From NCBI RefSeq assembly GCF_004765815.2, contig NZ_ML974127.1, positions 62,001-126,000 on the forward strand: a stretch of 64,000 bases of DNA, in the 5' to 3' direction. This stretch comes from Halorussus salinus (GTDB lineage Archaea > Halobacteriota > Halobacteria > Halobacteriales > Haladaptataceae). The notes beneath the pieces are model-generated. The model saw only the letters and a program-made list of their open reading frames with translations, did not search any database and had not been told where the DNA came from. Made by a program: the position numbers and the translations under genes. The stretch's first letter is position 1. Every line of letters starts with the position of its first letter. Positions 9,750-18,930 of the stretch are shown here, in pieces.

Positions 9750-9878
9750 CGGACGACTCGCTACGCTCGTCGTCGTTGCGTCGCGGCAGAAACGTCCTGA
9801 CGGAGTCCTCACGAGCGAAGCGAGTGAGGGCACGTCAGGTCGTGAACGAAGTGAACGTCCTGACGGAGATTTGAACTC
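9750..9878. repeat. 129-bp direct repeat, copy 1, carrying a tRNA-Arg 3'-end fragment
   Basis: Positions 9750-9878 repeat at 9966-10094 with one mismatch seen (GTCC versus GCCC). Each copy contains several small inverted repeats (CCTCAC...GTGAGG, CGTCAGG...CCTGACG) and ends in the T-arm and acceptor 3' half of the tRNA-Arg gene (AACGTCCTGACGGAGATTTG). Copy 1 is only the 3' fragment. The 87-bp spacer 9879-9965 carries an inverted CAAATCTCCG. Confidence 0.85.
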
Positions 9879-9965
9879 GCCGAGACGGTCCGGGCGTGCG
9901 GCCTTCGGCCGTTCCGGGCGTGCGACTCGTCTGCTCAAATCTCCGTAAATGGAGTTTCCGCGACG

Positions 9966-10094
9966 CGGACGACTCGCTACGCTCGTCGTCGTTGCGTCGC
10001 GGCAGAAACGCCCTGACGGAGTCCTCACGAGCGAAGCGAGTGAGGGCACGTCAGGTCGTGAACGAAGTGAACGTCCTGACGGAGATTTGAACTC
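9966..10094. repeat. 129-bp direct repeat, copy 2, overlapping the intact tRNA-Arg
   Basis: This is the second copy of the 9750-9878 repeat. Its end, from 10072 on, is the genuine 3' half of the minus-strand tRNA-Arg. Duplication of a tRNA 3' end is what tRNA-targeting integrases leave behind, but no integrase gene is present here. Confidence 0.85.
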
Positions 10095-10144
10095 CGGTCC
10101 CTGGCTCCGCAAGCCAAGAGGATAGTCCACTACCCTATCAGGAC
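10072..10144 (-). tRNA. tRNA-Arg, anticodon GCG
   Basis: A 73-nt tRNA read on the minus strand. The acceptor GTCCTGA pairs with TCAGGAC and is followed by discriminator G. The anticodon stem TTGGC/GCCAG encloses the loop TTGCGGA, giving anticodon GCG, which reads CGC. The T arm is CGGAG-TTCAAAT-CTCCG. No intron and no encoded CCA were seen. The D stem has a U-U opposition and a G-U pair, so it is imperfect but normal for archaeal tRNAs. Confidence 0.93.
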
Positions 10145-18464: not shown

Positions 18465-18930
18465 TAGTCGAAGACGGCTGAGGGGAGTAAGCCCCCTTCT
18501 GTTCGTCCGAGTATTCGGCTGAGCGTCCGCGCCGTCGTTCGGGCTACCTTGACGACGCCCGGCGTCGAGACGCCGAGCGTCGCGGCGTGGACTTGCACCG
18601 GCGAGGATTCGCCGTTCCATCCGTTCTCTCCCGTCTCACGTAACGTGGCAAAGCCACGCCCTCGGCGGTATGCACCGCCTCACAACGTGGCAGAGCCACG
18701 CTAGCCCTCGGTGGGTCAACTCTCCGTTCCTTGCCGCGGCGCGAGCCGCTTCGGGTCGGGATTCGCGCACCTCATCGGTCGAGGAGAGGGGTCTCGTTTC
18801 TGTTCCAGAGCCAGTGGTCTCCCACTCCGGACTTGCGTCCGGTCGCCTGCCCGAACGGTGGGGGGACTTTCCTCACGGGGGCGCGCGAGCGCGCCCTCGC
18901 GGGAACTCGGCTCCCTCTGCCGAGCGAACG
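18465..18930 (-). ncRNA. rnpB: RNase P RNA
   Basis: Minus-strand sequence carries the universally conserved RNase P RNA blocks: GTGAGGAAAGTCCCCCC (CR-I, complement of about 18861-18876), a GGTGCAAGTCCACGCCG region, and CGAACAGAAGGGGGCTTAC (CR-V, complement of about 18488-18506), with many GC hairpins between, including one near the 5' end at about 18876-18895. Total length near 465 nt suits archaeal type A RNA, the catalytic core of tRNA 5' processing. A CCTTAAA box (complement of about 18946-18952) sits about 25 bp upstream. The exact ends are estimated. Confidence 0.85.

Follow-up and report, generated by a model that had tools for sequence, protein, structure and literature searches.

Why is the 3' end of a tRNA-Arg(GCG) gene present twice in a short stretch of Halorussus salinus DNA? 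The gene lies in the window analysed here, a stretch of 64,000 nucleotides. An earlier note, made from the sequence alone, had read the duplication as the scar of a tRNA-targeting integrase, or as a decayed or miniature element. The second suggestion comes close to what is found, since the DNA between the two tRNA ends is a dispersed hairpin, a mini-element of a kind. The integrase-type scar fares less well because the window contains no integrase.

The tRNA-Arg locus

The tRNA gene is encoded on the minus strand (Table 1). Its tail, taken from the T-loop to the last base before the discriminator, occupies positions 10073-10091. The claim that a 129-bp block occurs twice, 216 bp apart and with one mismatch, is accurate: 128 of 129 nucleotides are identical, and the sole difference is a T at 9795 where 10011 has a C. 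A direct repeat this long at near-identity far exceeds chance. Because the tRNA gene runs from 10144 down to 10072 on the minus strand, each block consists of 23 nt reaching to the tRNA 3' end (10072-10094 in block 1) and 106 bp of downstream sequence. Block 2, at lower coordinates, is therefore downstream of the gene. The short repeated pieces and inverted repeats that had been described are present as well, with GTCCTGACGGAG at 9794-9805, 9857-9868, 10010-10021 and 10073-10084, and the inverted piece TCAAATCTCCGT at 9935-9946.

Table 1. Features of the tRNA-Arg(GCG) locus, in window coordinates
Feature	Position	Strand	Basis or remark
tRNA-Arg(GCG) gene	10072..10144	-	ARAGORN and Rfam RF00005
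Block 1 of direct repeat: tRNA tail and 106 bp of downstream flank	9966..10094	-	
Block 2 of direct repeat: tail copy (9857-9875) and same flank as block 1	9750..9878	-	
Whole hairpin element, made up of the inverted tail piece, the P2 stem, the variable P3 and the tail copy	9858..9946	-	
Inverted T-loop/tail piece ACGGAGATTTGA, the 5' arm of P1	9935..9946	-	
Conserved core AGTCGCACGCCCGGA...CCCGGACCGTCT	9883..9927	-	
P3 hairpin CGGCC-GAA-GGCCG, with C-GNA-G apex	9899..9911	-	
Exact 19-nt copy of the tRNA-Arg tail	9857..9875	-	
Flank hairpin F, formed by pairing of 9994-10008 with 9955-9966 on either side of GACGACGAGCGTAGCGAGTCGTC (9968-9990)	9955..10008	-	
Second, shorter inverted-tail hairpin (CCTGACG ... 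CTCCGTCAGGGC)	10010..10055	-	Repeated at 9794-9839

The earlier note did not recognize that the 87-bp spacer between the blocks corresponds to a conserved hairpin element, which is also found downstream of many other tRNA genes. The spacer holds no gene. Read along the tRNA strand, the element passes from the inverted tail piece through the core AGTCGC...CGTCT to the 19-nt tail, and its stem (AGTCG...CGTCT) encloses a variable hairpin. The segment 9860-9950 folds better than 200 of 200 shuffled versions, with z scores of -4.7 as DNA and -4.1 as RNA. Membership in a known Rfam RNA family was rejected, as the only match in the hairpin region to reach its gathering score is the tRNA, and all others are weak and fall below this threshold.

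Two further features deserve mention. The shorter inverted-tail hairpin type recurs behind two different tRNAs (loci L110 and L122), which have the core TCGCAAA(C/T)AAACCGCGTTTGCT in common. Elsewhere in the window, an archaeal RNase P RNA gene occupies 18476-18921 on the minus strand (Rfam RF00373).

A family of hairpins behind tRNA genes

A blastn search with the locus returns ten further places in its own genome. Six of the seven loci retrieved adjoin a tRNA gene recognized by ARAGORN, the seventh is at an intron-bearing tRNA-Lys, and each of the copies found in this way has its own tRNA's tail at its end. A strict sequence pattern matches nine times in this genome, compared to none for its reversed control, and has matches in 28 of 392 genomes of the order (control 0 among the matches listed). 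Removal of three bacterial chance matches (L084, L100 and L101) from the 67 pattern matches leaves 64 archaeal ones, 61 of which are preceded by a same-strand tRNA gene at a distance of no more than 700 bp.

A covariance model built from the element, R1, finds matches in 345 of 384 Halobacteriales genomes and in 84 of 93 genera, at a rough E-value of 0.001 or less and with at most 13 candidates scored per genome. The family appears to be confined to this order: 48 genomes match in a phylum sample of 294, and all 48 are within Halobacteriales, with none outside. In the window's genome (G000), all 19 R1 matches follow a tRNA gene and 16 of the 45 tRNA genes are served. Match lists from four of the six genomes searched at E <= 0.01, all from Halorussus (G000, G003, G004 and G013), contain 71 matches. 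Sixty of these have a tRNA gene on their strand no more than 1 kb upstream, in 48 cases at a distance of 36-96 bp. The other 11 include one behind a tRNA-Pro missed by the RF00005 search, one behind a decayed tRNA-Glu, one behind a protein gene, five with the core in other palindromes, two with a partial core and, apparently, one chance match in coding sequence. The arrangement is similar in other genera, where 39 of 40 loci, a non-random set hand-picked from the phylum-sample list to include strong and weak scores, have a same-strand tRNA gene 32-447 bp upstream. In 38 of these 39, the 3' side shares 15-19 of the 19 positions of the cognate tail.

Some members depart from the usual layout. 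At L184 (G363), the core is fused straight onto the T-loop of a decayed tRNA-Gly and the usual spacer is missing. A hairpin module, TTCCGAAAGACGC..., takes the place of the tail copy at L056, L086 and L256.

Base pairs in the stem of the element covary. In an alignment of 66 elements, 91.7% of cells are paired compared to 79.6% after shuffling. There are 88 double-change cells versus 22, and the covariation score is 0.236 versus 0.075; none of these three values is reached in 500 shuffles, which ignore relatedness. When the named structure is slid along the alignment, pairing drops to 29-46%. Of the 240 cells for the two outer pairs of P2, 220 are Watson-Crick, 6 are G-T and 14 are mismatched. 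A C-GNA-G apex is present in 108 of 124 cores (shuffled mean 38.9), and loops of this type form unusually stable DNA minihairpins. Together, the few G-T pairs in P2 and the C-GNA-G loops lean toward a hairpin that acts at the level of DNA rather than RNA.

In the window's genome, nineteen cognate copies (up to 3 mismatches, within 600 bp downstream) are found behind 17 of 45 tRNA genes, the nearest copy lying 101-196 bp downstream, and none of the 45 genes has one within 280 bp upstream. The arm of the cognate tRNA is a better fit to the 3' copy than 95% of other arms in 124 of 132 elements, and in 82 the copy is identical across 19 nt. For isoacceptors that vary from one genome to another, 92 of 101 copies resemble the tRNA of their own genome most closely, with 6 ties and 3 cases against. 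Past the T-loop, the inverted 5' arm matches its cognate only weakly (mean score 4.64 versus 3.74). Because the 3' copy is strongly cognate and the inverted arm weakly so, the conserved feature is the tail sequence itself, and less so its pairing with the inverted arm. A general rule of long inverted triplication, in the order tail-flank, inverted, tail-flank, was dropped, since only 7 of 71 loci show strong similarity between the flank that follows the copy and the one that follows the tRNA.

Inheritance, mobility and competing explanations

Within 650 bp of the tRNA-Arg gene, 15 of 18 Halorussus genomes carry the hairpin or a variant of it, one has a remnant and two have none. No islands are inserted at this tRNA in the stretches read. 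The earlier note held that a double block with no islands in all related genomes would indicate local duplication only. This view is too narrow, given how many unlinked loci have the core.

Cores from 58 Halorussus elements are most alike when they come from the same tRNA in different genomes (0.793), and for this reason the family is old at its sites in Halorussus. The outer arms behave in the same way (0.803 for the same tRNA in different genomes versus 0.576). Recent transposition inside Halorussus is unsupported, since cores that share a genome but belong to different tRNAs (0.739) resemble one another no more than cores across genomes do (0.769).

Candidate mobilizing enzymes were sought through integrases in the genome and Y1_Tnp presence across the order, and none was found for the element. 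The integrase family PF00589 has nine matches in the whole genome and none in the window, just as had been noted from the sequence. One integrase gene (G000:C1:1500386-1500820) is located about 1 kb downstream of tRNA-Glu(CTC) (1501832-1501906), which has no tail copy within 600 bp; it is possible that this gene marks a true integrated element. Y1_Tnp genes are found in 254 of 384 genomes of the order. Of the 18 Halorussus genomes, 8 lack this family (PF01797), including the hairpin-rich G001, G003 and G004, and a Y1 or RAYT driver was rejected because Y1_Tnp presence does not track the hairpin. Exact-pattern scans of viral collections, which could miss diverged copies, gave no matches, and blastn against plasmids and phages gave none at a limit of 1e-5, at which diverged copies could also escape.

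Sites without a tRNA are informative about what attracts the core. One locus in G004 has the usual layout behind a protein gene, whose 3' end includes the T-loop-like sequence GGGTTTAAAATCC; the target itself is a T-loop-like GGTTCAAA. Orthologs from 14 of 18 genomes were aligned, with L275, L277 and L280 left out for having no target-pattern match and L281 (G009) for a weak one. A T-loop-like target, differing from the pattern at no more than 4 positions, is present in all 14. Four have the element, in full (G004), shortened (G007), as a variant (G014) or truncated after the first arm (G006), while G010 has the inverted arm only and nine have none. These copies may share a single old event as their origin. 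The core also resides in intergenic palindromes, 18 of 20 such loci having no tRNA upstream on that strand in a set hand-picked mostly from places without a known tRNA. The protein-gene site and the palindromes thus argue that the core is drawn to sequence or to hairpins, and not to tRNA function. A second dispersed palindromic repeat, ...GACTGAAAGGGGCCG ... CGGGGGCTTTC..., occurs at Halorussus intergenic loci L284-L303. It contains nested mini-hairpins and often includes the AGTCGC...CGTCT core.

The favored explanation, at a probability of about 0.5, is that the element is a haloarchaea-wide, non-coding, REP-like hairpin that landed at T-loop-like DNA with duplication of the target's tail. 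The family as observed has a core that folds, a stem that covaries, a same-strand position downstream of tRNAs and an end formed by the cognate tail. The module may have reached its targets as a single-stranded DNA hairpin, brought there by some enzyme or by template switching during replication. The 3' part of the target would have been duplicated on arrival, such that the gene stayed intact. Copies would then have been passed on mostly vertically, with direct-repeat recombination or selection keeping the tail copy like its tRNA. Tandem units and the few longer duplications, such as the 129-bp block, probably formed later by recombination between tails.

Alternatively, the hairpin could function as RNA, within the 3' trailer of the tRNA. 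It would be co-transcribed with the tRNA, and the tail copy would mimic the tRNA 3' end for RNase Z or CCA processing, termination or regulation, a situation resembling that of the rtT repeats behind E. coli tyrT. A covarying stem with invariant loop bases, tight spacing behind the tRNA, long persistence at the same tRNAs with vertical inheritance, and tail copies that are so often identical over 19 nt (82 of 132) speak for such an RNA, and this role is a tentative possibility. It does not readily explain why only 16 of 45 tRNAs in one genome bear the hairpin, why the core also occurs at a protein gene and in tRNA-free intergenic palindromes, or why G-T pairs are scarce in P2 and pairing of the tail copy with the inverted arm is weakly maintained.

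A bolder version of the landing hairpin can be imagined, in which single-stranded DNA hairpins target T-loops throughout the order, with the help of an unrecognized enzyme, and give tRNA genes a spare 3' tail that is continually homogenized. This tail could be a repair donor, or a decoy att site against tRNA-targeting integrases; such a role is doubtful. A purely mutational origin, with no mobile unit, is improbable. If template switching took place again and again at the T-arms of tRNAs and at mini-hairpins, palindromes would become nested within one another, in keeping with the nested hairpins with GNA apices, the near-perfect Watson-Crick stems and the two sizes of inverted tail pieces at the Arg locus, but a core shared by 84 of 93 genera needs inter-locus copying, or descent with constraint, beyond local errors. 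Most improbable are scars or decayed remnants of integrase-driven proviruses or plasmids that use tRNA 3' ends: the tail copies resemble att sites and haloarchaeal proviruses leave short 3' tRNA copies (portions of PMC7911831 and PMC3119063), but one core accompanies many different tRNAs with cognate tails, a pattern that integration of one element through one att site would not produce, the window has no PF00589 match, and viral, phage and plasmid collections have no match at the sensitivities used.

Relation to known repeats

If the landing-hairpin reading is right, most haloarchaea bear a repeat family that has so far escaped description, is linked to tRNA genes and evolves together with them. 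No published description or name for the element was found in the open-access literature, outside of which most subscription papers lie. The family would offer a direct test of how short palindromes persist without their own transposase, a question that is also open for CGTC REPs, and might be relevant to tRNA 3' processing and to tRNA genes as integration sites. There is a practical risk for annotation, as tail copies and trailing hairpins can pass for provirus scars. Like the element, haloarchaeal proviruses that target tRNAs leave the gene intact and are accompanied by a short direct repeat of its 3' end on the downstream side. However, kilobases of DNA and an integrase separate the copies of a provirus, whereas 87 bp without a gene separate those of the Arg locus, and no integrase lies between or near them in the window.

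The closest parallels are with bacterial REP, BIME and REPIN sequences. These are also short, non-coding, dispersed palindromes with a conserved foot and a variable stem-loop that form dimers and clusters, and the haloarchaeal element is likewise a short dispersed hairpin with conserved ends and a covarying stem. The CGTC-tagged REPs have no dedicated transposase (PMC3733652), and no dedicated enzyme was found for the element either. That paper lists bacterial phyla, and no archaeal family was found in its main text. In contrast to REPs and REPINs, the hairpin is tied to T-loop-like sites and bears the tail of its target. It ends in this T-loop and tail copy instead of an unpaired GTAG or CGTC tag; its own CGTC pairs within P2, whereas that of REPs is an unpaired tag. 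Nor, to judge from genome content, does it appear to have an associated Y1 (RAYT) transposase, given the 8 of 18 Halorussus genomes, hairpin-rich ones included, that lack PF01797.

A different parallel is provided by rtT, which consists of tandem units of about 170-180 bp behind E. coli tyrT, each opening with the tRNA 3' end. Both rtT and the haloarchaeal element are repeats behind a tRNA gene that carry the 3' end of the tRNA. However, rtT belongs to one enterobacterial tRNA locus, whereas the hairpin element, with its conserved core, is found at many types of tRNA across the haloarchaea.
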